Source: Nitrospirales bacterium
GTDB lineage: Bacteria; Nitrospirota; Nitrospiria; Nitrospirales; UBA8639
Length of the DNA: 56,848 nucleotides
NCBI GenBank assembly: GCA_022825885.1
Contig: JAJDVY010000014.1
Span: forward strand, 1-56,848
Reading direction: 5' to 3'
The notes below the pieces were generated by a model. It had not been told where the DNA came from, did not search any database, and saw only the letters and a list, made by a program, of their open reading frames with translations. Positions 34,095 to 47,170 of this stretch are shown here, in pieces (the first letter of the stretch is position 1; every line of letters starts with the position of its first letter). Made by a program: the position numbers and the translations under genes.

Positions 34095-34607
34095 TTACTC
34101 AGAATCTCCTCGCATCATGAATGGGTGATTCAAGACCCACATTTCGTACATGGGAATGACAAACATGATCAAAAACGTAACCGTCATGAGAACGTCGCCG
34201 GTTAATAGCGTCAACACAAAGAGGGGAGACACGTACGTGATCAGCCATGGCGACATGAGATCCAATGTTACGCCCACAAAGGCCATCCACGTGGTCAGCA
34301 CCTTGACAAGAGGGCTGGCCATGGTCAGGTACAAGACGTGTACCATGATCAGGAACACGACGGGCATCGTGAATAAATGAAAGTGCGTGGTTTCGGCCAA
34401 TTGTCCGAACGACATGGGCTCTCCGAAATTTTCAGGGGACCCGCGATAATGCAGGGCAATGCCCTTTGGCGTCAGGTCGGTCATGCTGTGCGCCCAGATA
34501 AAGGTGAAGACGAATCCCACGAACATGAGGAGCAAAAACCACGTATACACCAGCCTGATCTGTCGGTCGGTGTCGCGCAGCCGAAACCGGGTATTGAAAT
34601 TCCGCAT
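34095..34607 (-). CDS. Four-helix membrane protein with conserved-looking histidines, function unknown
   Basis: The 170-residue protein has four hydrophobic helices (about residues 20-41, 73-95, 102-122 and 128-153). A short extracytoplasmic-looking loop separates helices 1 and 2. Histidines cluster at the start of helix 2 (ETTHFHLF) and within it (IMVHVLY), a spacing that could hold heme, but this is inference. I do not recognise the family. It is the last gene of the minus-strand group porin, lipoprotein, FMN-binding protein, so a natural guess is the membrane partner of the flavinylated protein. 221 bases with repeats separate it from the FMN-binding gene. Confidence 0.75.
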   Translation of the reverse strand: MRNFNTRFRLRDTDRQIRLVYTWFLLLMFVGFVFTFIWAHSMTDLTPKGIALHYRGSPENFGEPMSFGQLAETTHFHLFTMPVVFLIMVHVLYLTMASPLVKVLTTWMAFVGVTLDLMSPWLITYVSPLFVLTLLTGDVLMTVTFLIMFVIPMYEMWVLNHPFMMRGDSE

Positions 34608-34695
34608 TGCAATCGAATGTTCACGTAGAGCCCCGATCTCCTTCTGTCATCGAGCCCCTCTGTCTGTAGTTTGTAAGTAACAATCCGTTGACGAT

Positions 34696-34800
34696 TCCCT
34701 CCCCCCAGCCCTCTCGCTCCAGGGGAGAGGGAACTCCCATAAATTTCTCTCCTTTGCCTGCCCTGAGCGGAGCCGAAGGGTAAGGAGGGGTGGGGGAGGT
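34696..34800. repeat. Extragenic palindromic repeat cluster
   Basis: CCCTCTC and GGAGAGGG form a hairpin at 34710-34731. The left TCCCTCCCCCC and the right GGGGTGGGGGAGG pair over a longer range. Between them lies CCTGAGCGGAGCCGAAGGG, a variant of the sequence at 38.34 kb (CCTGAGTCTCTCGAAGGG). The region is in the gap between the FMN-binding and four-helix genes. Confidence 0.65.
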
Positions 34801-34828
34801 AGAGTCTTCGGGGATTTATCCCCTTCCT

Positions 34829-35752
34829 TCAGAGACCTAAGAGGGTTTCAAAGAATCCTTTTTCATTACTGGTGGCTGCTAGGACGTCACGGCCGAGACC
34901 GTGAGGCTTCAAGTAGAATTCATTCACCAGGACGAGCACGCGTTTCACCCCGGCGCTTGCCGAACGCACGGACATCGTGGCCCCGGTGATGTTGATGATG
35001 TCCCGGTTGATCCGGATCGGGTCGCCGATGGTTTTTCCCTGATATTGATAATTGAAGCGTTTCGTGGCGATCTCGTTGCCGCGGGCTTCCCGGTACACCA
35101 TGACTTCAAAGTTCATGCATTCGCCCGTCGGAGTCACGCCCACCATGTACGTAATCGGGCGATGCTTGCCGATGGTATTCTGGATGACCGCGTACCCGTC
35201 GACGTTCCCCTGGGTTTCCCCGATGAAGACGTCGAAGGTGTATTCCGGGAATTCCCAGCCGATGACCTTTTCGATAAACGTTTTCTGCTCCGCCGTCAAC
35301 GTCAGGGTTTCACGGCGGATCTTTTCTGAATCCGGAAACATGGCTTCGGCGGCTTCGTCCTCGGTGAAATAAATTTCCAGGTGCCCCAGTTCCTCCGGCG
35401 TAAGCCAACGATTGAGTTCGTGGTCCCAGATCCGTTCCTGAGGTTCCTCCTCGGCGAAGACCGGTGAAGAAAGGAAACCCGTGAAAGCACTGCATACGGC
35501 AAGAATAACGGCAATAAATGAAAGCCGGATTCCGGCTTTCCTCTTTCTGTCATTCCCGCGAAAGCGGGAATCCAGGCATTTTTCTATTCTGTCATCCCCG
35601 ACATCTTTAATCGGGGATTCAGAGTCTTTTGTCTTTTCCGGCGCCCCGTTTGCTCCATAAAAAACCCAAGACCCTGGATTCCCGCGTGCGCGGGAATGAC
35701 AGAAGGAGAAAAACGGGAATGACCGATTCGTGATGTCATTGGGTATTTTCAT
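34829..35752 (-). CDS. Exported FMN-binding protein with ApbE flavinylation motif
   Basis: The mature part is an FMN-binding domain of the NqrC/RnfG type. VGVTPTGECMNFEVMVYRE is followed by FNYQYQGKTIGDPIRI and the flavinylation motif DIINITGATMS, whose second T (TGAT) is the expected FMN attachment site. A hydrophobic signal segment (LSFIAVILAVCSAFTGFLSS, ending FAEEE) precedes it. The only ATG with a ribosome binding site (GAGGAAAGAGG) is at 35752, about 90 codons before the signal segment. The stretch between consists of REP palindromes read in frame. Either the start is a rare codon nearer the signal, or palindromes inserted into the gene. apbE lies 2.6 kb away. Confidence 0.82.
   Translation of the reverse strand: MKIPNDITNRSFPFFSFCHSRARGNPGSWVFYGANGAPEKTKDSESPIKDVGDDRIEKCLDSRFRGNDRKRKAGIRLSFIAVILAVCSAFTGFLSSPVFAEEEPQERIWDHELNRWLTPEELGHLEIYFTEDEAAEAMFPDSEKIRRETLTLTAEQKTFIEKVIGWEFPEYTFDVFIGETQGNVDGYAVIQNTIGKHRPITYMVGVTPTGECMNFEVMVYREARGNEIATKRFNYQYQGKTIGDPIRINRDIINITGATMSVRSASAGVKRVLVLVNEFYLKPHGLGRDVLAATSNEKGFFETLLGL
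35521..35700. repeat. Cluster of REP-type palindromes inside the 5' part of the FMN-binding protein gene
   Basis: Four palindromes are present: AAAGCCGGATTCCGGCTTT (35521-35539), CATTCCCGCG-AAA-GCGGGAATCC (about 35549-35576), GTCATCCCCGA...TCGGGGATTC (35591-35620) and GGATTCCCGCG-TG-CGCGGGAATGAC (about 35674-35700). The second to fourth belong to the GTCATTCCCG family also seen at 43.2 and 52.3 kb. Opposite orientations alternate, as in composite REP elements. Confidence 0.8.
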
Positions 35753-35787
35753 CCCAATCCAGCCTCTTTCCTCTGTCTCAATCTGTC

Positions 35788-36243
35788 TCAACTGACGATC
35801 GTACATCCTTTATCCTTTAGTTGGTTGGCAATCCGTTGAGTGAGGCGCCTCTCTTCCTCTGTGATGGGAGGAATGCGTTTCCAGCCCGTGGCTTGCGACC
35901 GCGCGCCCATGGGAGAAAAGAATTCTCTGGCTTGCTGAACGGAAATCCTGACGGCCTGTCCGTCCGGGGTGAGATTCACAAAGAACCGCGCGCGTTCCTG
36001 ATTGGCATCGCGTGAAAATAGACCGGCTTTTCGCTTGGAAGTAAAGCCCATCCATTCGGTCTCAATCACCCCTTTGTTCTTATTCACTTCAGCCAGTGTG
36101 AATTCATCCATGCTTGCCACGGTGACCGACCATGCTTGGTCGTAGGGACAGGCGGCCTTTACGGTGCCGGGTGCGCCAGAAAACGTCGTGCATTCCACCG
36201 TCAAGACGACCAGGAAAACACAAAGAAAGAACCGTATATCCAT
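35788..36243 (-). CDS. Small exported lipoprotein, function unknown
   Basis: The 151-residue product has a signal segment (DIRFFLCVFLVVLTVEC) with a cysteine at about residue 18 that could be lipidated, although VEC is not an ideal lipobox. The domain contains DQAWSVTVASMDEFTLAEVN followed by KGVIETEWMGF, a pattern that loosely recalls BamC/NlpB-type lipoprotein folds. That comparison is only a guess. It begins 23 bases after the porin gene and its end overlaps the first possible start of the FMN-binding gene, so the three are likely cotranscribed. Confidence 0.72.
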   Translation of the reverse strand: MDIRFFLCVFLVVLTVECTTFSGAPGTVKAACPYDQAWSVTVASMDEFTLAEVNKNKGVIETEWMGFTSKRKAGLFSRDANQERARFFVNLTPDGQAVRISVQQAREFFSPMGARSQATGWKRIPPITEEERRLTQRIANQLKDKGCTIVS

Positions 36244-36266
36244 AAATGGATGAAATTTCCTTTCGG

Positions 36267-37745
36267 TTAGAAGTACGTCGACATGTTGAATTGGAACCCG
36301 TTGCGGTCCGTGGCTGACCCGGTAGGTGAGGTCTTACCATGTCTATTAAACGTATAAGCCAATTTGATGACCGAATCTTCCAGCGGCCGAAAATTAATCC
36401 CCAGAGTCAACCGGTCGATGCGATTCGGGTTGCTGTCGTCATCGGTGTTGGTATCCACCTGTCCCCAACGGAGTATGCCCGTAAACGTCGAGTCCCGACC
36501 GAAAAAGCTGGGAAAGGTCTTGGTGAGTCGCTCCGGCATAAAGTGGTAATTCAATTGCACGTAATATCCGAACATATTTTCGGGGACGACGTAACTGGAG
36601 TCTCCTTGTGCAACATGCCGGCGCCTTGTTGATCCGGTCGTATCCTGAGTGAAAAATGGCTCACCCGCGCGACGCGTATACGTCCCGCTTCCTTTGGCGT
36701 TGGCCCAGGCGGCTTCACCCTGAATGTCAAAGGCCCCTCGTTGCAGGTTCCCGTCGATGGCGAACAGGGTCAAATCATGCTTGTCATTTTCGTCCCATTT
36801 GCCGTGGTGAACGGATCCGGCCACCTCGACACCCAACACAGGACTGAACGAGATACGGCTGACAATCGCCTTGTTCTCGTTGTTATCCTTTTGAAAACTT
36901 CCGCGAGCAGATCGCAGCCCGCTGCCTTCCTCGACGGAAAAATCGCCGTTATCGCCCTGAAAGCCATTCACGACGTACAATTCATAATCGATTTTGGAAA
37001 GCTGGGTCGGATAGAACGTGCCGTAAAAGCCGAGTCCGCTTTCGGCAAACGTGGAAGGCAGGATCAATCGGCTCACCATAGGACGGAGAGGCAAATCATT
37101 GAGCGGCGAGTCGTGGATGAGGTTGAATCGGCCCATGGGCATCAGGATGATCCCCCCCCGAAGGTTGAGTGCGTCATTGAACCGATAGTCCATGGTGGCG
37201 AATTCCATTTTGATGTCTCCGTCCGATTTGTTGCCTTGGGGGCCGCCGTGTTCAACCTCAAGTTCGGCAGCCACGCTGAGCCGGTCCGTGACCTGGGAAT
37301 AGAAGAACGGTACAAAACGTTCCTGGTCGAATTCCAACCTGTTTCGACAATCCCGTGATCCACCGGAACATCGGGTGAGCGAAAAGTCGATATATCCACC
37401 GATGATGGTTTTCGGCGCCTTGACGAAGGGTTTGGCATAGATTGTTCGTCCACCCTGCAGGCCGGAACCACCGGAGAAGTCCGTGCCGTATCGGATTGAC
37501 TGTTTTGAGGTGTCGCCCATGGCCGGGGCGGAACTCTCTTTCGGTGGTGGCGCCATGGGTGGAGCCGCCACTGGAGCACCAGGAGTGCCTTTCTCTATTT
37601 TCTGTCGTTGGGAATACCACTCTTCAAACATTTTTCGTATCTGTTTCATTTGTGCTGGAGTAAATTCCGCATCATCAGCCTTAACTGTTGTTTGTGGCCC
37701 AATCATGAGGACCATCATTGCCCCCGCGATCAACAATCGTCGCAT
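36267..37745 (-). CDS. Outer-membrane porin-like beta-barrel protein
   Basis: The 492-residue product has a signal peptide (RRLLIAGAMMVLMIG...VKA), a short helical segment (FTPAQMKQIRKMFEEWYSQR) with a Pro/Ala-rich linker, and a long barrel with alternating strands that ends in Phe (QFNMSTYF), the usual barrel-assembly signal. Overall it resembles phosphate-selective porin O/P-type proteins, but the substrate is unknown. A strong AAGGAGG precedes the ATG. It is the first gene of the minus-strand group that includes the FMN-binding protein. Confidence 0.82.
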   Translation of the reverse strand: MRRLLIAGAMMVLMIGPQTTVKADDAEFTPAQMKQIRKMFEEWYSQRQKIEKGTPGAPVAAPPMAPPPKESSAPAMGDTSKQSIRYGTDFSGGSGLQGGRTIYAKPFVKAPKTIIGGYIDFSLTRCSGGSRDCRNRLEFDQERFVPFFYSQVTDRLSVAAELEVEHGGPQGNKSDGDIKMEFATMDYRFNDALNLRGGIILMPMGRFNLIHDSPLNDLPLRPMVSRLILPSTFAESGLGFYGTFYPTQLSKIDYELYVVNGFQGDNGDFSVEEGSGLRSARGSFQKDNNENKAIVSRISFSPVLGVEVAGSVHHGKWDENDKHDLTLFAIDGNLQRGAFDIQGEAAWANAKGSGTYTRRAGEPFFTQDTTGSTRRRHVAQGDSSYVVPENMFGYYVQLNYHFMPERLTKTFPSFFGRDSTFTGILRWGQVDTNTDDDSNPNRIDRLTLGINFRPLEDSVIKLAYTFNRHGKTSPTGSATDRNGFQFNMSTYF

Positions 37746-37865
37746 TGGACGACCTCCTTATTGTTGGGGACTCTTGCCGGTCCTCTGGTCACTATAGGGG
37801 CTCTGTAGACCCTCACGTGTTATGCCTTGGTGTGTGTAGTGTATTTGCTGCGCCTATTCTCTTCT

Positions 37866-37908
37866 GCCTCCTCTCTTTCGATGGGAGAAGGAGAGGGTGA
37901 GGGGAGGC
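37866..37908. repeat. Extragenic palindrome, CCTCC...GGAGG type
   Basis: GCCTCCTCTCTTTCGATGGG and the following GAGAAGGAGAGGGTGAGGGGAGGC form an imperfect hairpin of about 15 pairs. It touches the stop codon of the Com-like gene and resembles the repeats at 25.46 and 34.70 kb. Confidence 0.55.
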
Positions 37909-38105
37909 TACTGTGTGCATGGCGCCAATATGATCTCGCTTTCCTTGAGTCTGTTATAGGAAATGGAGACGATCCGTTTACAGCGTTTGCATTTGACTTC
38001 GAGATTGTCCCCGCGCAGTTTTGCGATGAGCTGACCGCATTCGCATCTTGCTTCGACAGGCTTAAGTTGTCTCCCCAGCCACTTGGTGTTTCTATCAAAA
38101 TTCAT
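37908..38105 (-). CDS. Com-like zinc-ribbon protein
   Basis: The 65-residue product has two cysteine pairs, CECG (residues 21-24) and CKRC (39-42), around KLRGDNLEVK. This layout matches the Com family, whose Mu-phage founder is a zinc-dependent activator of mom mRNA translation. No other phage gene is near, so it appears as a lone gene here. No clear ribosome binding site is visible. The upstream side is the AT-rich region shared with apbE. Its target is unknown. Confidence 0.7.
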   Translation of the reverse strand: MNFDRNTKWLGRQLKPVEARCECGQLIAKLRGDNLEVKCKRCKRIVSISYNRLKESEIILAPCTQ

Positions 38106-38149
38106 TGAAGTGAAAATGAAAGCAATGGGAATTCAGAAGATGCTCCGCA

Positions 38150-38230
38150 AATTGACAAAAATCAAAATGATTTTTATTTTTAATTGAATTGATTTTAATA
38201 ACAGTTATTAAGATATAAAATTTGCAGAAC
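38150..38230. promoter_or_regulatory. AT-rich divergent control region upstream of apbE
   Basis: The stretch is made mostly of A and T, in contrast to flanking coding DNA. It contains GATTTTTATTTTTAATTGA and, further on, GATTTTAATAACAGTTATT, the latter matching 11 of 19 bases of the E. coli Fur consensus, which is too weak to call a site alone. The same GATTTTTATT string occurs in the Fur-like box at 40.97 kb beside the duplicated unit. Confidence 0.45.
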
Positions 38231-38376
38231 TCTGTCAACTTTATTTTGTCGTGAAGAAAATTGACTGCAATCCGTTTCTCACGTTGATAGAATGAGACTG
38301 TGGGGGGGCTGGGGTGAGGGAAAATTGTCAACGAATGTCTGTCCTGAGTCTCTCGAAGGGACTGAACACATACAAG

Positions 38377-39402
38377 ATGAAACGGATGTCTTTTCTTTGG
38401 CTCACGCTTTTGAGTATTTCGTTCCTCTGTTGTCCTGATCTGCCTGTGCAGGCGGCTTCGCCGCACGTGGTCAAGCGCGGTCAGATGCATATGGGTACGC
38501 TGGTTTTTCTGACTGCCGTGGCCGCGGACGAACGGCAGGCCCACGATGCCATTGACAAGGGGTTTGCGGAAATCCATCGCTTGGAGGAGATCCTGAGCAC
38601 GTGGATTCCCGGTAGCGAACTGTCACGGATCAATGCCGCGGCCGGGCAACGTGCCGTCGCGGCCGGTCCGGAAACCTTGGAAATCCTGGAACGCTCGTTG
38701 GAAATGGCCCGGTTGACGGAGGGCGGCTTCAATATTGCCATTGGGCCGGCCGTCGAGGTTTGGAACGTCAGTCGTGAAGGGCGCATTCCGTCGAGGGAAG
38801 AGTTGGATGCCGCGCGCCCGCTCATGGATCTTTCCGCCATCCACGTCGATCGGGAGGTGGGTACCGTGTATCTGGCGCGTTCCGGGATGCGGGTGGATAT
38901 CGGCGGTATCGGCAAGGGCTATGCCGCCGATTTCGCGGCCCGCGTGATGCGGGAAGCCGGGGCTTCGGCGGGTGTGGTCGCTATTTCCGGCGACATCAAA
39001 ACCTTTGGCCGCCTGCCGGACGGCCAACGGTTCACGTTCGGCATCCAGCATCCCCGCAAGGAGAACGGGATCACGATCGGACAACTCGAACTCGAGGATG
39101 AAGCCGTGTCCACGGCGGGCGATTACCAACGCTATTTCGAGAAAGACGGCATTCGCTACCATCACATTCTCGACCCTCAAACGCTTCAGCCCGCGCGTCG
39201 CTCCCAGAGCGTCACCGTCGTGGCCGAAACAGGGGTGCTGGCCGATGGCCTGGATACCGGCATCTTCGTCATGGGTCCGGAAAAAGGCATGGCATTGATT
39301 GAACGCCTGTCCGGAGTCGAAGGCGTGATCGTCGCAGCGGACGGCACCGTGTTCGTCTCATCCGGCTTGCGGGGCCGTTTGCAGTTGAGCCCGTACTCGT
39401 AA
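38377..39402 (+). CDS. apbE: FAD:protein FMN transferase ApbE
   Basis: ApbE attaches FMN from FAD to a threonine of exported FMN-binding domains. The 341-residue product has a signal segment (SFLWLTLLSISFLCC; the cysteines could be lipidated), the start GTLVFLTAVAADERQAHDAI, the conserved DIGGIGKGYAADFAAR near residue 172, and the metal and FAD-binding elements STAGDYQRYF and YHHILDPQT. An upstream in-frame start would include a repeat (CCTGAGTCTCTCGAAGGG), so ATG 38377 is preferred. The FMN-binding protein at 34.8-35.7 kb is the obvious substrate. A damaged second copy lies at 41.0 kb. Confidence 0.93.
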   Translation: MKRMSFLWLTLLSISFLCCPDLPVQAASPHVVKRGQMHMGTLVFLTAVAADERQAHDAIDKGFAEIHRLEEILSTWIPGSELSRINAAAGQRAVAAGPETLEILERSLEMARLTEGGFNIAIGPAVEVWNVSREGRIPSREELDAARPLMDLSAIHVDREVGTVYLARSGMRVDIGGIGKGYAADFAARVMREAGASAGVVAISGDIKTFGRLPDGQRFTFGIQHPRKENGITIGQLELEDEAVSTAGDYQRYFEKDGIRYHHILDPQTLQPARRSQSVTVVAETGVLADGLDTGIFVMGPEKGMALIERLSGVEGVIVAADGTVFVSSGLRGRLQLSPYS

Positions 39403-39430: not shown

Positions 39431-39804
39431 TTATCCGACACGTGGATCAAGAGTATACGGGACCTTGACGAAATCGTAGCGATCCGGTGGGAAATCCTTC
39501 ACATTCCGCGTGACGAGATGAAGCCCGTGAGATTGGGCGATAGCTGCTTGTAAGCATCAGGAAGTCGCCAGCGTTCGGAGCGACGCAGAGAAGCGGCCAA
39601 ATCCGCCTCAATCGCGGTAATGGGCAGTGTTGGGAATTGGTCAAGCAGTTCGACTGCGAGGTGGAGGTAATTGTCATCAAAGCCCACGAGCACTTCAGCA
39701 CGGGTTATTGGCGACAAAGCAATATTCTCGCACTCATCGGCGATGAATTCGGTAGCGGCGTTGATTTCGTTGAAGTGATTAATGAGGATGACTGAGTCAA
39801 CCAT
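39431..39804 (-). pseudogene. VapC-type PIN toxin, frameshifted
   Basis: The protein opens MVDSVILINHFNE and has PIN-domain acidic residues (Asp in VDS, Glu in TRAEVLVG, Asp in RLPDA). After RLPDA the frame is lost; a one-base deletion near 39548-39556 explains it, because the next frame continues QAAIAQSHGLHLVTRNVKDF and runs to TAA at 39431. With one base restored the gene is 125 codons, a normal VapC length. As it stands the product lacks the last catalytic helix, so it is probably inactive. A sequencing error is the alternative. Confidence 0.75.
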
Positions 39805-39809
39805 CCATC

Positions 39810-40055
39810 TCAAAGGCGTTGCTCCCACTCTTTGCGGGTATTGGACTGATAGCGGAGTCCGTCGCCATGCTTCCAGCTACCACGAGTCCTGTCGAGCAAC
39901 TCGGTCAGGCGTTTCGATTGACCATTGCCGTGACGTTCGCGATATTCGCGGACGGCGCGCCGCACAAGCTCACTCATAGGTACTCTCTGGGTTGAAGCTT
40001 GGCGGATGAGCCAAGTTTTGTCCTCATCCGGCAGGCTGATGATGGTTCTGGACAT
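39810..40055 (-). CDS. Ribbon-helix-helix antitoxin (CopG/VapB-like)
   Basis: The 81-residue product has the ribbon-helix-helix pattern SRTIISLPDEDKTWLIRQA followed by SELVRRAVREYRERHG, then a C-terminal tail likely to bind the toxin. GGAG lies about ten bases before the ATG. The VapC-type gene follows five bases downstream, the usual antitoxin-toxin order. The antitoxin frame is intact while the toxin is broken. Confidence 0.8.
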   Translation of the reverse strand: MSRTIISLPDEDKTWLIRQASTQRVPMSELVRRAVREYRERHGNGQSKRLTELLDRTRGSWKHGDGLRYQSNTRKEWEQRL

Positions 40056-40263: not shown

Positions 40264-40908
40264 TTACTTCTTGTGTTCGTCGGTGGTCTCGCCCTTGCCT
40301 TTCTTCTCCTTCGACGAGTCGCCGGGATGTCCCAGGCTGCCGCCATAGGCCTTCATATGTTTGTGCATGGCGTCTATCCGTGCTCGCTGTTCGTCGGTCA
40401 GCACGGCTTTGCCGTCACGTCCGGCTTTAATCGATGCCATGTGCAGTTTTGTCATTAAAGCGTGAACATTGTTCATTTGCGTTTCAATGTCCGCCAGTTT
40501 GGATTGTTCGTCCCACAGCAGGGCGTGCAGGTCGACTTTGGCTAAGTCCACCTGGGCCTTAATCCCGATCCGGTCTTTCTTGTAATTGATTTTGAGATCG
40601 CGAAGCTGTTGAACCTGCTCGTCCGTCAGACTCATTGCCTCCTTGTTCTTCAACATATGTTTGAAGAACATCATGGCCTTCTGGTGGTCCCGGTTATGCA
40701 TGTCGCCGGAACCATGATCGTCATGCCCTTTCCTGTGGCCCATTCTGTGTCCCGGTGAACCATAGCTTCCTGAACTCGAATGCATGCCCTTTGATTTCCC
40801 GTGCATGGACCCGGGAGGGTCGGCAAAGACCGGTCCCGCAGTCAGCAAAAAGACCGCAGTCAACAGGGCAATGAATGGTAACGGGGAACGTGTTGTTCTG
40901 AATCTCAT
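40264..40908 (-). CDS. Spy/CpxP-like periplasmic protein, copy 1
   Basis: The 214-residue product has a signal peptide (PLPFIALLTAVFLLTAGPVFA), a His/Gly/Ser-rich segment (SMHGKSKGMHSSSGSYGSPG and onward to about residue 70), then a four-helix domain with the LTxEQ-type motifs MSLTDEQVQQLRDL and AVLTDEQRARIDAM. Spy and CpxP bind misfolded proteins in the periplasm, and related heavy-metal-resistance proteins (CnrX, ZraP) bind metal. AAGGAGG precedes the chosen ATG. It is paralogous to the gene at 41.24-41.96 kb, and a Fur-like box lies 61 bases upstream. Confidence 0.87.
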   Translation of the reverse strand: MRFRTTRSPLPFIALLTAVFLLTAGPVFADPPGSMHGKSKGMHSSSGSYGSPGHRMGHRKGHDDHGSGDMHNRDHQKAMMFFKHMLKNKEAMSLTDEQVQQLRDLKINYKKDRIGIKAQVDLAKVDLHALLWDEQSKLADIETQMNNVHALMTKLHMASIKAGRDGKAVLTDEQRARIDAMHKHMKAYGGSLGHPGDSSKEKKGKGETTDEHKK

Positions 40909-40968
40909 GTCGAATTCCTCCTTTGAATGGTCAGGTTGATGAAACACTGCCAATCTTTTTATAGAATT

Positions 40969-40987
40969 GATTTTTATTATCATTACC
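40969..40987 (-). promoter_or_regulatory. Fur-like operator upstream of the first Spy-like gene
   Basis: On the minus strand the sequence is GGTAATGATAATAAAAATC, which matches 15 of 19 bases of the classic Fur consensus GATAATGATAATCATTATC. It lies 61 bases before the ATG of the Spy-like gene. A fur gene is 5 kb away. Iron control of this unit is inferred, not shown. Confidence 0.55.
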
Positions 40988-41013
40988 ATAAATAAATAAT
41001 CGCGCCGTGTCAA

Positions 41014-41160
41014 GGTGCCGGTTTCTTCATGGGGGTGGGAAAAGTCATGGCGTTGATTGAGCACCTGCCCGGAGTTGAAGGCGTGATCGTCGTCGCGGAC
41101 GGCCCCGTGTCCGTCTCTTCGGGCTTGCAGGACCGGTTGCAATTGAGCCTGCACCCTTGA
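41014..41160 (+). pseudogene. 3' remnant of a second apbE
   Basis: The last 37 codons (41047-41160, MALIEHLPGVEGVIVVADGP and onward) match the end of ApbE at 27 of 37 residues and end at the equivalent place. About 33 bases upstream also align (CCGG-TTCTTC-ATGGG-GG-AAA). Everything further 5' of the gene is gone. With the Spy-like neighbour on the other strand this shows that an apbE-spy unit was duplicated and one apbE then decayed. Confidence 0.85.
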
Positions 41161-41184
41161 TGTGCCAGGGGAACGTTCGTGACA

Positions 41185-41215
41185 GACAAAGGGCCGCATG
41201 AAGCGGCCCTTTGTC
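41185..41215 (-). terminator. Hairpin terminator between apbE remnant and second Spy-like gene
   Basis: GACAAAGGGCCGC and GCGGCCCTTTGTC form a perfect 13-pair stem with loop ATGAA. It lies 25 bases past the stop of the minus-strand gene; the stem ends in CCCTTTGTC then TGTC on that strand. It may also stop plus-strand transcripts. Confidence 0.75.
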
Positions 41216-41239
41216 CGGAGCGCGTTCCAAGGGAACGGG

Positions 41240-41956
41240 TTACTTCACGTGCCCGTTGGTTCCATGGCCTTTGCTTTTCTTGTACTTGGAATAATCACCG
41301 GAGTGTCTCATGTTGCCGCCATGGGATTTGATGCGTTTGTGAATTTTGTCCATCCGCGCACGTTGTTCTGCGGACAACGCGGCTTTGGCGTCCCGCTTGG
41401 CTTTGATGGAAGCCATGTAGAGTTTCGTCTTCAAGGCATGAAGCTTGTTGAATTCCTTTTCGATGTCAGCCAGATTCGCCTTCTCGTTTTTCAAGACTTC
41501 ATGCAAATCGATGCTGGCTAGTTTCACTTCGGCCTTTGTTCTAATCCGGTCTTTCTTGTAGGTGACCTTGAGTGTCTGAAGTTTTTGCTCCTGGTCGGCC
41601 GTGAGGCTCATGCCTTCCTTGAACTTCAGGATATGCTTGATGAACTTGATAGCGTCCTGATGGTGACCGCCATGCACGGCCCCGTGACCACGGCCGTCAT
41701 GTCCGGGGTGCTTCCCGTGTCCTGACGAATGAGCGGCATGATGGCCGCCGCCGTGTTTCTTGTGCATGCCGTCATGATGGCCGTCATGGTGAACTGAGCC
41801 GTGGCCGCCGTGGGTGCCGGCACTGGCATGCATACTTTTTGAATGCCCATGCATGGAGCCGTGTGGGTCGGCGAGCGCCGGACCCGCAGTCAGCAGGAAG
41901 AAAACAGCGAGTAGGGAAACGGGTAAAACCCAGCGGGATGTTTCGGGGATTCTCAT
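41240..41956 (-). CDS. Spy/CpxP-like periplasmic protein with long histidine-rich segment, copy 2
   Basis: The 238-residue product has a signal peptide ending AGPALA, then about 70 residues dominated by His, Gly and Ser (for example GHGSVHHDGHHDGMHKKHGG), then the four-helix domain with MSLTADQEQKLQTL and AALSAEQRARMDKI. The helical part aligns throughout with copy 1 (DIE, HAL.TKL.MASIKA.RD, EQRAR all shared), but the histidine segment is longer and denser. Periplasmic binding of a transition metal is a natural inference. AGGAGGAACC precedes the ATG. Confidence 0.87.
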   Translation of the reverse strand: MRIPETSRWVLPVSLLAVFFLLTAGPALADPHGSMHGHSKSMHASAGTHGGHGSVHHDGHHDGMHKKHGGGHHAAHSSGHGKHPGHDGRGHGAVHGGHHQDAIKFIKHILKFKEGMSLTADQEQKLQTLKVTYKKDRIRTKAEVKLASIDLHEVLKNEKANLADIEKEFNKLHALKTKLYMASIKAKRDAKAALSAEQRARMDKIHKRIKSHGGNMRHSGDYSKYKKSKGHGTNGHVK

Positions 41957-42102: not shown

Positions 42103-43173
42103 TCAGGTTGTCCATGCTTTCCTGTCGAATACGACCGTATGGGTGGCCATGACTTCCAACTCCACCTTCGCGTCGAGCGGGAAGAATCGCGTCGAGGCTT
42201 CACTGCTGTGCACGACGTCGCCGGATCCCAGGCGGATTCCGTAAATAATCTCCGACCCGCGAAACTGGCGGGACTCCACGGTTCCGTCTCCATCCCCGTT
42301 TTCACGGATATGCACGTCGTCCGGTCGAATCATGACCGAGACGTCCGGTCCGCCCCGGTAGCCTGAGGGGACCGGGAACGTCCCGAGTTGCGTCAGGACC
42401 GCGGCATCACGAATGGTGCCGGGGATGAAGTCGGCCTGCCCTACGAACTCGGCGACAAAAGGCGAAACCGGAAGATGATAGATCGTTTCGGGTGTGGCGA
42501 ATTGTTCCAGTTTCCCGCTGTTCAGGACGGCCACGTAATCGGCCATGGCAAAGGCCTCTTTATGGTCATGTGTCACGAGCACGGCGGTGGTTTGGGTCAT
42601 TTTCAGCAGGCGCAGGAGTTCCATGCGCATGCGTTCGGTCGTATCGGGATCCAGGTTGCTGAACGGTTCGTCCAACAGCATCAGCACGGGTTGCGGGGCT
42701 AGCGCGCGCGCCAATGCCGTGCGTTGCTGCTGGCCGCCGGACAGCGCGTGGGGGTATCGTGGCGCAAGAGCCGAAAGCCCGGTGAGAGACAACATCTCGT
42801 CGATCCGTTTTCGACGGTCGTCCGCCGTGGTTGTTGCCAGCCCGAAGCCCACGTTGTCCCGTACCGTCAGGTGAGGAAACAGGGCATAGTCCTGGAACAC
42901 CATGCCGACGCGCCGTCGTTCGGGCGGGACGTGCCGGTTCGTCGCGGAGACGACGGCGCCGTTCAGCCTGATTTCGCCGGAGGCCACCGGTTCAAACCCC
43001 GCGATGGACCGAAGCGTGGTGGTCTTCCCGCATCCGGACGGCCCCAACAAACAGATCACGTCGCCCTTTTGCGCCGAGAAGGACATGCCTTCCACCGCCG
43101 GGGAGCCGGCTTCATACGAGCAGGTCACGTTCTGCAATTCGAGCACGATGGGCTTATCGTCGGGAGGAGTCAT
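42103..43173 (-). CDS. fbpC: Ferric iron ABC transporter ATPase (FbpC-like)
   Basis: The product has Walker A GPSGCGKTT, signature LSGGQQQRTALARAL, Walker B VLMLLDEPFSNLD, and a C-terminal TOBE-type domain (VMIRPDDVHIRENGDG near residue 277). This matches the ATPase of Fe(III) or related substrate importers of the CysA/PotA/FbpC group. ATG 43173 is chosen; the next in-frame ATG upstream lies in a REP element. No good ribosome binding site is visible. It is the last gene of fur-fbpA-fbpB-fbpC; 175 bases with REP elements separate it from fbpB. Confidence 0.9.
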   Translation of the reverse strand: MTPPDDKPIVLELQNVTCSYEAGSPAVEGMSFSAQKGDVICLLGPSGCGKTTTLRSIAGFEPVASGEIRLNGAVVSATNRHVPPERRRVGMVFQDYALFPHLTVRDNVGFGLATTTADDRRKRIDEMLSLTGLSALAPRYPHALSGGQQQRTALARALAPQPVLMLLDEPFSNLDPDTTERMRMELLRLLKMTQTTAVLVTHDHKEAFAMADYVAVLNSGKLEQFATPETIYHLPVSPFVAEFVGQADFIPGTIRDAAVLTQLGTFPVPSGYRGGPDVSVMIRPDDVHIRENGDGDGTVESRQFRGSEIIYGIRLGSGDVVHSSEASTRFFPLDAKVELEVMATHTVVFDRKAWTT

Positions 43174-43195
43174 TAATACGAAAATAACCACTTTT

Positions 43196-43298
43196 GTCAT
43201 TCCCGACGTTAGTAATCGGGAATCCAGTGTCTTTTGTCTTCACGGACGCAGGAAAAAGCAAAGACGCTGGATCCTCGATTAAAAATGTCGAGGATGAC
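43196..43298. repeat. Composite REP element, two inverted palindromes
   Basis: GTCATTCCCGACGTTAGTAA-TCGGGAATCCAG (43196-43227) and, inverted, CTGGATCCTCGATTAAAAAT-GTCGAGGATGAC (43267-43298) flank about 39 bases. The outer left flank GAAAATAACCACTTTT is nearly identical to the flank of the copy at 52.35 kb. It lies between fbpB and fbpC and may affect the level of the fbpC part of the transcript. Confidence 0.8.
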
Positions 43299-43348: not shown

Positions 43349-44962
43349 TTAGGTCCGGTCTTTCCGCATCAATAGTAACACGACCGGAATGGTAATGACT
43401 ACGATCAGCAGGGCAGGGGGTGCCGCCAATTGATACAGTTCTTCGCTGGCCTCGAGCCAGATCCTCACGGCGAGGGTATCGAACCCCACGGGGCGCAACA
43501 GGAGTGACGCCGGTAATTCCTTCATGCATTGCACAAATACCAGGATCCAGGCACTCAGAAACCCGCCCCGCACCAACGGCAGAGTCACGTAAAAAAACGT
43601 TCGCAGGGACCGTGCCCCCAGGCTTCGCGACGCTTCCTCCAGATTCGGAGTGAGTTGTTGGAGTGTGGACTCCATGCCTTGCAGCGCCGCCGGGAGAAAA
43701 TGGACCAGATAGGCCATGAGCAGGACGAGAATTGTGCCGTACAATTGGGGAACGGTTTGGGAGACCAGGACCAGGATGGCGAGGGCTGCAACCGGGCCGG
43801 GCAGGACGTAGCCGGTATAGGCCCCTTGCACGCAAAAGGTGCCGGCCCAGGTCCGGCGCCGGCACGCCAGGTAGGCGAGAGGAATCCCGCACATGACGGC
43901 CGCGGTGGCCGTGAGCCCTGACAGGGAAACGCTGTTCCACACGTATCCGAAGAACTGGGGAGTAATGTCACCGGCTGACGCCGACGTGACGGTCCATTGA
44001 ATGAGCAGCAGCACCGGCAGGCCGAAGGCCGCTCCGAACACGAGAACCAGATAGCCGGTAAACAGCAGGGCCGTGAAGGGACGGCAAGGTTGAGGCGTCG
44101 GTTTCCGGTACCGGCCGGTGGTTTGGTAGAACCGGCTTCGTTGCCGGAACCACCGTTCGCCGAATAGAAAGACGAACGCGCATGCGACCAGTATCAGGCT
44201 CAGGCAAGCGGCTGCCGTATTGTCGAACCGGCCGGTCATTTGCTGGTACACGGCGTAGGTAAAGGTTTGAAAGCGCAACAGCGACACTGCGCCGAAATCG
44301 GACGCGACGTAGAGAATCGCCAGGAACAGGCCCGCGATCAGCGATGGGCGGATGAGCGGAAGCGAGACACGGAAGAACGTCGTCACGCGATTGGCTCCGG
44401 TCGTGCGGGCGGCTTCTTCAAAAGAGACGTTGAAATTCTTGAACGCCGAACGGGCCAGCAGGTACACGAACGGAAACGTGTTCAGGGCCAGCACGAGTAC
44501 GGCGCCTTCGAAACTGAACGGCGAAAAGAACGTAGCCTCCGGCCCGGCAATGGTTTGCCATGCGTGTTCCAGTGCGCCCCCGCGTTTCAAGAGGTACGTA
44601 TAGGTATAGGCCAGGACGTAGGAGGGGATCGACAGGGGTAAAATCAGCAACCAATCCCAAATCCTCGACCCGATAAAGGTATAGCGGGTCAGGATCCAGG
44701 CCAACGAAATGCCCAGGGTCAGGTTGATGACCGCCACGCCCAAGGACAGGGAAATCGTGTTGAAGAACAGTTCCGGGACCCGTGTAGTCCAGAGTCGTCC
44801 CCAGACGGCCGGGTCCGCCGTCACGGCTGAAAAGACGACGTACAACAGTGGCAGCATGAGCGTGACGGCCAGACAAAAGCCGAGCAGGATCAGGGGGGAA
44901 GGCAAACGAAAACGGATCGATGGAAATGGAGGAAACGGGTTAGCGGAGTCCAACTTCTTCAA
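43349..44962 (-). CDS. fbpB: Ferric iron ABC transporter permease (FbpB-like)
   Basis: The 537-residue protein is a fused double permease with about 12 hydrophobic helices. Each half carries an EAA-type cytoplasmic loop for the ATPase: EEAARTTGANRVTTFFRVSLP near residue 182 and EEASRSLGARSLRTFFYVTL near residue 446. It overlaps fbpA by 23 bases. Double-unit permeases of this size are typical of Fe(III) importers. Confidence 0.9.
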   Translation of the reverse strand: MKKLDSANPFPPFPSIRFRLPSPLILLGFCLAVTLMLPLLYVVFSAVTADPAVWGRLWTTRVPELFFNTISLSLGVAVINLTLGISLAWILTRYTFIGSRIWDWLLILPLSIPSYVLAYTYTYLLKRGGALEHAWQTIAGPEATFFSPFSFEGAVLVLALNTFPFVYLLARSAFKNFNVSFEEAARTTGANRVTTFFRVSLPLIRPSLIAGLFLAILYVASDFGAVSLLRFQTFTYAVYQQMTGRFDNTAAACLSLILVACAFVFLFGERWFRQRSRFYQTTGRYRKPTPQPCRPFTALLFTGYLVLVFGAAFGLPVLLLIQWTVTSASAGDITPQFFGYVWNSVSLSGLTATAAVMCGIPLAYLACRRRTWAGTFCVQGAYTGYVLPGPVAALAILVLVSQTVPQLYGTILVLLMAYLVHFLPAALQGMESTLQQLTPNLEEASRSLGARSLRTFFYVTLPLVRGGFLSAWILVFVQCMKELPASLLLRPVGFDTLAVRIWLEASEELYQLAAPPALLIVVITIPVVLLLMRKDRT

Positions 44963-45947
44963 TGACGGTCATCGTGGGGTCGCGGAGTTGAGCCAACCGG
45001 CTTAACGGGACGTCGGCCACTTGAATGTTCTGAAGCGGCAACAACTCGGGCGCAGCCGTCACGTTCGGATTCAAAGGATATTCTTTGTTCACGTCCGCGA
45101 ACATGCGTTGTCCTTTTGGAGAGATAAGAAAGCGGACCAGGGCCTGGGCCTGCGTCAGGTGTTTGGTGTGCGTGGTGACGCCGATTCCCGAGGCATTGAG
45201 CACCACGCCCATCCCCTGCTTTCCTTGATCCGTGGGAAGCGGGGCAATCGGCGCATCCGGATGTTTCGCTAAGTGGCGGTTGATATAGTAATGATTGACG
45301 GGGCCGGCGGCCACTTCCCCCCGTGCCACGGCTGCCACGATTTGCCGGTTTTTCCCATAGACGAGTGATCCGGCGTTCTCCTTCAGGCCTCGCAGGAACG
45401 CGGTGGCGACTTGATCGCCTTTCGCCGCACGAATCACCGACACCCCGGTCTGTAAATAGACGCTGCCCGCACTGGGGATCGCGATTCTGCCTTTCCACTG
45501 CGGCCCGGCGAGATCCAGGATGGAGGAGATGTCCTCCGGATTCACCATGATGGTGTTATAGACAATTACCCAAATGCGACCCGATAACCCGATCCAACTG
45601 TTGTCCGGTGCCCGGAAACGACCGGGGATGGTGGCCTCGACGTCGGGGTCGGCCGCGGGTTGGAGTAATTGCAATTCACGCGCGCGTTCGAGAGTGCCGG
45701 CGTCGTTGGTGATGAGCACGTCGGCCGGCGTCCGGTCTCCTTCCATCTGAAGCCGGTTGATCAATGCCGTACTGTCCGCCGTCAGCATTTGAACGTTGAT
45801 CCCGGACTCGGCTTGAAACGCATTGAGTACCGGTTGAATGAGTCGTTCGGCCCGGCCGGAGTAGACGACCAGCGCGTCTTCGGCATAGCCCCATGAGGGC
45901 AGGCTCAAGGTCGCCATTACGGCGAGAAAGAAAAAAAGGGTCCTCAA
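44940..45947 (-). CDS. fbpA: Ferric iron periplasmic binding protein (FbpA-like)
   Basis: The 335-residue product has a signal peptide (LFFFLAVMATLSLPSWGYA), the domain start DALVVYSGRAERLIQPVLNA, and the tandem tyrosines NHYYINRHL near residue 219 that bind Fe(III) in this family. It begins with TTG, overlapping the fur stop as TTGA, which suggests translational coupling with the regulator. Iron as substrate is inferred from the tyrosines and the fur linkage. Confidence 0.9.
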   Translation of the reverse strand: MRTLFFFLAVMATLSLPSWGYAEDALVVYSGRAERLIQPVLNAFQAESGINVQMLTADSTALINRLQMEGDRTPADVLITNDAGTLERARELQLLQPAADPDVEATIPGRFRAPDNSWIGLSGRIWVIVYNTIMVNPEDISSILDLAGPQWKGRIAIPSAGSVYLQTGVSVIRAAKGDQVATAFLRGLKENAGSLVYGKNRQIVAAVARGEVAAGPVNHYYINRHLAKHPDAPIAPLPTDQGKQGMGVVLNASGIGVTTHTKHLTQAQALVRFLISPKGQRMFADVNKEYPLNPNVTAAPELLPLQNIQVADVPLSRLAQLRDPTMTVIEEVGLR

Positions 45948-46432
45948 CGTTTGCCCGTCCTTGCATTGGCGCCCAGATCACGCCCGCAATTCTTGCAATC
46001 GCCGTTCGGCAATTGCATGGGAGTGCCGTACAATTCCAGTTTATGGGTGCGAATGGTGAACCCGTTTTTTCTGGCGACTTCTTCCTGCAGTTCTTCGATC
46101 TGGCAATTCTCGAATTCTATGATTTTATCGCACACCGTGCAGATGAGATGGTCGTGGTGGCCTTTGTGGGCTACGTTGTCGAACTGTGTCTGGCTCCCGA
46201 AATGTTGCTCTTGAGCGAGGCCGGTCTCACACAGGAGTTTGAGCGTGCGGTAGACCGTAGCCAAGCCGATATGCGGATCTTTTTTGGAGAGCAGCCGGTA
46301 CATCTGTTCGGCCGTCACGTGTTCCATTTTCAAAAAAGTCGAGAGGATATTTTCACGTTGACGGGTCAGTTTCAGGCTGTTTTTTGCAAGGTGTTGCTTG
46401 AGAATCTCAAGCTCTTTGGTGGGCTTCGCCAT
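45944..46432 (-). CDS. fur: Fur-family metalloregulator
   Basis: The product is a DNA-binding repressor or activator that senses iron or a related metal. From ATG 46432 it is 162 residues: a winged helix with LTRQRENILSTFLKMEHVTA and GLATVYRTLKLLCETGLAQE, then the metal-binding KGHHDHLICTVCDKIIEFEN and the second cysteine pair CKNC near the C-terminus. The frame is open another 61 codons upstream, but conservation starts here. The stop overlaps fbpA. Auto-control and control of fbpABC are likely; no strong Fur box is seen in its own 168-base upstream gap. Confidence 0.92.
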   Translation of the reverse strand: MAKPTKELEILKQHLAKNSLKLTRQRENILSTFLKMEHVTAEQMYRLLSKKDPHIGLATVYRTLKLLCETGLAQEQHFGSQTQFDNVAHKGHHDHLICTVCDKIIEFENCQIEELQEEVARKNGFTIRTHKLELYGTPMQLPNGDCKNCGRDLGANARTGKR

Positions 46433-46600
46433 AAAATGAATTTCCGCGCTTATGAAATTTCCATTAAACCGGAATATGGTTGGAGGGTCAAGCGGAAATC
46501 CTCGTTCGTTGACGAACTCACCAAAAGTATTCATGTTTTCTTTGTGTTGACGCGTCTTCGCGCGGCTCGTTAGGATCATCCACCCGTTAGGACACTCGAT

Positions 46601-47170
46601 ATGCGAAAACCACAAGAGATCACGATCGACCGGACGTTACTGGTCTACGGGTTGCACCTGGCCCAGAAAAAAGAATGTTCCATGGTCAGCGATGTCAAGG
46701 TACAACAACTGCTTTTTCTGGCCGAATTGCAAATGCTCGGCAAGGGGGTGCGCGGGTTGCATTACGAATTCATGCGGTTTCCCTATGGAGCCTTCAGCAA
46801 AGACCTTGATAATGACCTGCTGGCTTTGCGCAAGAAAGAACGGCTCCAGAATTTTGACGTGATCGGTTCCGCGGAAGCCTGCATCCCTTTGGTGGAAGAA
46901 GAGGTGGTTCCCGGTGTTGAGGCCAACGAACAGGTCGTGGAGATTCTCCAATCCATCGTGGAGACCTATGGGCTTCAGGATGCGGGAGAGATCACGAAAT
47001 CCGTGGAAGACGTTGAAATCAGCGTGGTCGATCGACCCGAGGAAAAATTATGTGTCCGGGATATTCCGTTTCATTCCATCGTGTTGGTCCCCTCCCGCAT
47101 CGAAATCACCGGAGAGTTTTCCGTCCCTGCCAAAACATTGGCTCTCCTGAATAAAGCCCTCGGCTCATAG
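46601..47170 (+). CDS. Panacea/SocA-like domain protein (DUF4065 type)
   Basis: The 189-residue product has the pattern SDVKVQQLLFLAELQMLGKG followed by HYEFMRFPYGAFSKDLDNDL, which fits the Panacea (SocA-like, DUF4065) domain: a helix with LQKLLY-like residues and a GPF/YGAF motif. Such proteins act as antitoxins, or as adapters for ClpXP in SocA. No toxin-like gene adjoins it: fur is divergent upstream and comEA convergent downstream. The C-terminal third is of unknown fold. Confidence 0.6.
   Translation: MRKPQEITIDRTLLVYGLHLAQKKECSMVSDVKVQQLLFLAELQMLGKGVRGLHYEFMRFPYGAFSKDLDNDLLALRKKERLQNFDVIGSAEACIPLVEEEVVPGVEANEQVVEILQSIVETYGLQDAGEITKSVEDVEISVVDRPEEKLCVRDIPFHSIVLVPSRIEITGEFSVPAKTLALLNKALGS

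Follow-up and report, generated by a model that had tools for sequence, protein, structure and literature searches.

Bacterial electron-transfer systems in which ApbE flavinylates extracytosolic proteins have been described with several classes of membrane partner (NapH-, MsrQ-, PepSY-, DsbD- and NQR/RNF-like), and flavinylation genes are well known to colocalise with genes for iron transporters (Meheust et al, 2021, PMC8238504). A further group comprises the flavinylation-associated cytochromes of the DUF4405/FezC type, among which FezC has been proposed to form its heme sites by homodimerisation (Huang et al, 2024, PMC10979944). Here, we analyse contig JAJDVY010000014.1 of a Nitrospirales bacterium (assembly GCA_022825885.1), whose full 56,848 nucleotides we call the window (contig 23 of a 2.38-Mb genome). 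It holds an operon for a zinc-ribbon protein, a porin, a small lipoprotein, a putatively exported protein with a flavin mononucleotide (FMN)-binding FMN_bind domain and a four-helix membrane protein, here named H4, together with a divergent apbE gene. We give a probability of about 0.55 to the reading that this gene set forms an assimilatory, Fur-controlled, flavin-based envelope reductase. Behind it stand the gene content and its conservation, the association with iron transporters and Fur, the Fur-box-like sites of relatives, and a flavinylation motif accompanied by a single apbE. Much of global nitrite oxidation is the work of Nitrospira and their relatives, whose enzymes for it are iron-rich; iron acquisition in this group has been little studied, and among open-licence papers we found none on a flavin-based system there and none on this operon.

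An earlier note on this DNA, made from the sequence alone, had described a minus-strand run of porin, lipoprotein, FMN_bind protein and four-helix protein with apbE beside it on the plus strand, and all five genes are present as it placed them. Absent from that run was a 65-codon open reading frame between the porin gene and a putative operator, which codes for the zinc ribbon. The features of the operon are as follows.

34095-34607, minus strand: H4, four-helix membrane protein of 170 amino acids (open reading frame, invariant residues, four-helix model, no family match).
34829-35806, minus strand: putatively exported FMN_bind protein with the motif DIINITGATMS (PF04205, alignment, RnfG homologues in the PDB).
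35529-35720, strand not assigned: inverted-repeat element, resembling a miniature inverted-repeat transposable element, with 48-nucleotide arms that are 88% complementary (repeat matches in the genome).
35788-36243, minus strand: small lipoprotein of 151 amino acids, very weakly BamC/NlpB-like (PF06804, E 0.0017, below cut-off; N-termini of relatives).
36267-37745, minus strand: predicted 16-strand outer-membrane porin of 492 amino acids with an N-terminal helix (model, structure matches, weak Porin_O_P).
37908-38105, minus strand: zinc-ribbon protein of 65 amino acids (RCECGQLIAKLRGDNLEVKCKRCKR) with a suggestive likeness to Com, the first gene of the operon (homologues at named loci).
38162-38210, strand not assigned: A+T-rich putative operator with CAAAATGATTTTTATTTTT and the palindrome TAATAACAGTTATTA (same position as the Fur-box-like sites of relatives).
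38377-39402, plus strand: ApbE, flavin adenine dinucleotide:protein FMN transferase, divergent from the operon (PF02424, E 2e-80).

The locus shares with the catalogued flavinylated systems (PMC8238504) an FMN_bind protein, here putatively exported, a [ST]GA[ST] motif, a cognate ApbE, a membrane partner and links to iron transporters and Fur; it differs from them in that H4 belongs to none of the named partner classes and in that porin, lipoprotein and zinc ribbon are near-constant companions. DUF4405/FezC proteins are likewise small, histidine-containing membrane proteins found beside apbE and associated with iron, whereas H4 has no DUF4405 match, spans four helices and carries its invariant histidines all in helix 2. 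RnfG and NqrC have the same FMN_bind fold and motif; unlike their complexes, however, the operon has no Rnf or Nqr subunits and encodes a single soluble FMN protein.

The closest named relatives, whose H4 is about 94% identical to that of the window, are metagenome-assembled Nitrospira and Nitrospirales bacteria, which places the window in the order to which the nitrite-oxidising Nitrospira belong. H4 is present in 90 of the 98 relatives searched, and the order fur-fbpABC, (spy), divergent apbE, porin, lipoprotein, FMN, H4 was seen wholly or partly in 20 genomes from four families. We then counted neighbours at 80 named Nitrospirales loci, scoring each gene only where the flank was long enough. 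The FMN gene adjoins H4 at every scorable locus (74/74), and the lipoprotein (68/71), porin (56/58) and apbE (44/46) genes are nearly as constant, as is the zinc-ribbon gene just upstream of the porin (55/57). Conversely, 18 Nitrospirales genomes have no H4; 14 of these lack any FMN_bind domain, and in the other four the domain occurs in a different frame of 277 amino acids. The gene set is thus common to most sampled Nitrospirales, and its members co-occur beyond chance. The earlier note had offered the lack of a conserved neighbourhood as a reason to abandon its proposal, in which a flavinylated electron-transfer system outside the cytoplasm is linked with iron genes; instead, FMN_bind protein, motif, ApbE and iron-gene neighbourhood are all conserved. 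Two of its flanking partners fared differently. The TonB receptor is a chance neighbour, found at 1 of 61 loci, and the Spy-like proteins, although present in the window and its own family, occur at only 15 of 44 loci and at none in Nitrospiraceae; because neither is conserved across loci, both were dropped as parts of the system.

The iron genes follow beyond apbE, where the earlier note had recognised fur-fbpABC, and the FbpC gene recurs at 36 of 44 Nitrospirales loci.

40264-41956: tandem pair of histidine-rich Spy/CpxP-like proteins, located between apbE and fbpC.
42103-43200, minus strand: FbpC-like ATP-binding protein of a ferric iron ABC transporter (family match and synteny).
43349-44962, minus strand: FbpB-like permease (family match and synteny).
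44940-45947, minus strand: FbpA, periplasmic ferric-iron-binding protein with a Tyr-Tyr ligand pair, NHYYI (PDB homologues).
45944-46615, minus strand: Fur family regulator (NF006999, E 8.5e-29; synteny).

NCBIfam names would make FbpA a phosphonate or thiamine binder; these were set aside, as its PDB homologues are ferric binding proteins (best E 1.5e-49) and the Tyr-Tyr pair is kept. Between apbE and the Spy genes, at 39499-40055 on the minus strand, inspection by eye also picked out a toxin-antitoxin-like pair, ribbon-helix-helix-like and then PIN-like.

Phylum-wide searches found H4 in other Nitrospirota classes as well, with a core of porin, FMN domain (often fused to ApbE, the fusion lying upstream of H4) and H4. 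Twelve such distant loci (L082 to L093) were examined. Fur stands beside the core in nine (L082 to L087 and L089 to L091), and FbpBC in four (L084, L085, L086, L089); a cupredoxin accompanies FTR1 beside two cores (L082, L087), and L093 has FeoB. Only L088, where the contig ends, and L092 show no iron gene. Zinc-ribbon homologues occur at eight of them (L082, L083, L084, L086, L087, L089, L090 and L093). No FeoB-sized match was found in the 14 Nitrospirales genomes searched. That one iron importer takes the place of another in the distant loci, while the core stays the same, speaks most strongly for a function in iron metabolism. Regulation points the same way: a scan of 1.09 Mb of the named loci for at least 14 of 19 matches to the Fur consensus returned 73 Fur-box-like sites, 43 of them within the short apbE-porin gap, compared with about 0.4 per 20 kb in shuffled sequence. 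Most lie 320-450 nucleotides upstream of the porin gene, that is, upstream of the zinc-ribbon gene. The iron link of the gene set is therefore strong.

The same neighbours bear on the direction of electron flow. In a reversed scheme, the FMN protein would take electrons from ferrous iron and pass them through H4 to the quinone pool, delivering ferric iron to FbpABC or FTR1, if both are taken as importers of ferric iron. FbpA does bind ferric iron, and FTR1 with a cupredoxin is usually thought to need iron oxidation; the FeoB neighbour in L093, however, fits reduction. Covalent FMN usually has a low potential, at which the oxidation of iron is unfavourable unless strong ferric ligands are present. 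Overall, we regard the reversed scheme as improbable.

The FMN_bind assignment (PF04205) scores 25.2 bits against a cut-off of 22, and the protein has RnfG homologues in the PDB. The ApbE attachment motif DIINITGATMS that the earlier note had read in it is there, and alignment shows D-I-N-[ST]-GATMSVRS kept in twenty relatives, the [S/T]GA[S/T] core being TGAT or SGAT in all 20 aligned sequences. The whole genome encodes one FMN_bind domain and one ApbE, so their pairing is unambiguous and this ApbE is the sole candidate enzyme. Covalent attachment of FMN to the protein is predicted. A hydrophobic leader is visible in the relatives and in the window; the window's copy carries, in frame just upstream of its signal-peptide core, the inverted-repeat element of about 190 bp, to which 77 mostly partial matches exist in the genome. 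The conserved coding part of the gene spans approximately 34832-35536, and the open reading frame extends upstream through the insertion, which gives it a long arginine-rich N-terminal extension ahead of the signal-peptide core. Export of this particular copy may be affected.

H4 belongs to no family that we found, in agreement with the earlier note, which had called it an unrecognised partner. It has no Pfam or NCBIfam match, 14 diverse members searched against Pfam have none either, and a search against PDB sequences was empty or returned noise. For H4 and these 14 members, Pfam gave no match to the NapH, MsrQ, PepSY, DsbD or NQR/RNF-like partner classes. Specific candidates were rejected individually: DUF4405 (no PF14358 match; a probability of 1.5% in a profile comparison with DUF4405-like partners) and PepSY, MsrQ or cytochrome b561 (no match). 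AlphaFold predicts a bundle of four helices (predicted local distance difference test 76, predicted template modelling score 0.72), for which Foldseek found nothing at E<=0.001 and VIA-align a best Z of 7.3, usual for any helical bundle; as these structural matches are at noise level, no fold was assigned.

The residues of H4 are more informative. Invariant in H4 are Y54xG56, E72xxH75xH77, H90 (family-wide), F110 and W121; phylum-wide, the constant features are YxG, an ExxHxH that opens helix 2, one more histidine 13 residues further on, F110 and W121. This pattern suggests a heme-b or quinol-linked carrier. The N-terminus is rich in arginine, which suggests that it faces the cytoplasm; HxH would then lie on the periplasmic side, with the last histidine towards the cytoplasm. 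Such an arrangement would fit two membrane-spanning cofactors, perhaps held by a homodimer like the one suggested for FezC. A related family of 250-280 amino acids, which we kept apart as a paralogue, has a CxxCH-containing insertion in the first loop (L094, L095, L097, L098, L099 and L100), and some of these proteins are encoded beside cytochrome c, Rieske/cytochrome b or hydrogenase-like genes. The position of these CxxCH-bearing paralogues beside cytochromes makes an electron-transfer role for H4 more likely.

The outer-membrane components bear on whether electrons leave the cell. The porin is modelled as a barrel of 16 long strands, with structural matches to OprP, OprO, OmpF and DcaP, and Pfam gives a weak Porin_O_P match; most likely the protein is an ordinary small-solute diffusion channel and not the sheath of an electron conduit. 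Mtr-type porin-cytochrome conduits differ in combining a barrel of about 26 strands with a multiheme c cytochrome, whereas the proteins of this operon contain neither a c-type CxxCH heme motif nor a multiheme cytochrome. The earlier note had suggested a surface redox chain passing electrons outward, and a respiratory or extracellular-electron-transfer system working through or around the porin would draw on the fact that porin and FMN protein share one operon and on the role of flavinylated proteins in extracellular electron transfer in Gram-positives (PMC8238504). The predicted barrel, far smaller than those of the MtrB type, led us to discard a conduit as the principal interpretation, and the steady Fur and iron-importer neighbours suggest assimilation rather than respiration; we thus attach little probability to outward transfer. 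As to the remaining two proteins, a lipobox is plainly recognisable in lipoprotein relatives (STVGC, LTAC or similar), and the zinc ribbon resembles phage Mu Com (PF10122) in being short and having a CxC and CxxC pair. This likeness is only suggestive: against the curated cut-off of 22.9, the window copy gave no match and the L082 copy 14.5 bits and, unlike Com, the protein is fixed in an iron-linked operon.

Returning to the assimilatory reductase, we infer that it would work as follows. The porin would admit small ferric complexes, and ApbE would attach FMN to the exported FMN_bind protein. In the inner membrane, H4 would accept electrons, with the quinol pool as their most likely source, and carry them across, probably via heme b on the invariant histidines and perhaps as a homodimer. 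Once reduced, the FMN protein would in turn reduce periplasmic ferric iron, as such or in complexes, and the freed iron would enter through the transporter of the respective lineage, FbpABC here and FTR1 or FeoB elsewhere. A more ambitious proposal, which we put slightly short of even odds, is that H4 represents a new phylum-wide class of membrane electron carrier in a Fur-controlled flavinylated iron reductase with interchangeable importers (FbpABC, FTR1, FeoB) and a dedicated zinc-ribbon regulator. If the reductase reading is correct, most of the sampled order would share a reductive route of iron assimilation, the catalogue of flavinylated systems would gain a new membrane partner, and H4 and the zinc ribbon, two small unknown families, would gain a testable role.

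Several points weigh against the reductase. In the proteins of the Nitrospirales, five residues instead of three separate the position of the motif's aspartate from [ST]GAT; the best Fur-box match in the window is weak (13/19), with the palindrome TAATAACAGTTATTA at 38196-38210; confidence in the H4 model is moderate, and no known cytochrome matches it; and HxH, at the membrane edge, could bind something else. Moreover, the H4-FbpABC link is not obligatory: most Nitrospiraceae that lack H4 retain FbpB, and two H4-bearing genomes have no FbpB match. Since each occurs without the other, uptake by FbpABC does not require H4, and a fixed dependence was rejected. FbpABC also imports ferric rather than ferrous iron, and reduction may free iron from complexes rather than feed this importer directly. 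The earlier suggestion that ferric iron is perhaps reduced for FbpABC is therefore supported only in part, given FTR1 and FeoB in other lineages.

This separability of FbpABC would also suit an envelope redox system with another purpose, such as repair or the handling of copper or oxidative stress, whose link to the iron genes is no more than shared control by Fur. Spy/CpxP-like stress proteins adjoin the genes in the window's family, and cupredoxins lie near some distant copies. Most loci, however, have no Spy genes, and the exchange of importers around the core is not what co-regulation alone would predict; we consider this explanation unlikely.

Comparable gene runs exist on plasmids, where our searches found no H4 relatives. 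In Alpha- and Betaproteobacteria, three plasmids (Bradyrhizobium L182, Methylocystis L183, Ideonella L185) encode porin, FMN_bind protein, ApbE and a protein with four transmembrane helices together, and a Novosphingobium plasmid (L184) has the last three with a different upstream gene in place of the porin. These runs resemble the operon in joining FMN_bind protein, ApbE and a four-helix protein of about 145 amino acids, with a similar porin in three. Their four-helix protein is nevertheless of another type, weakly cytochrome-b561/DUF4405-like and not alignable to H4, and their annotated neighbours include no Fur or fbp-type importer. The Methylocystis run adjoins multicopper oxidase and ferritin-like genes.

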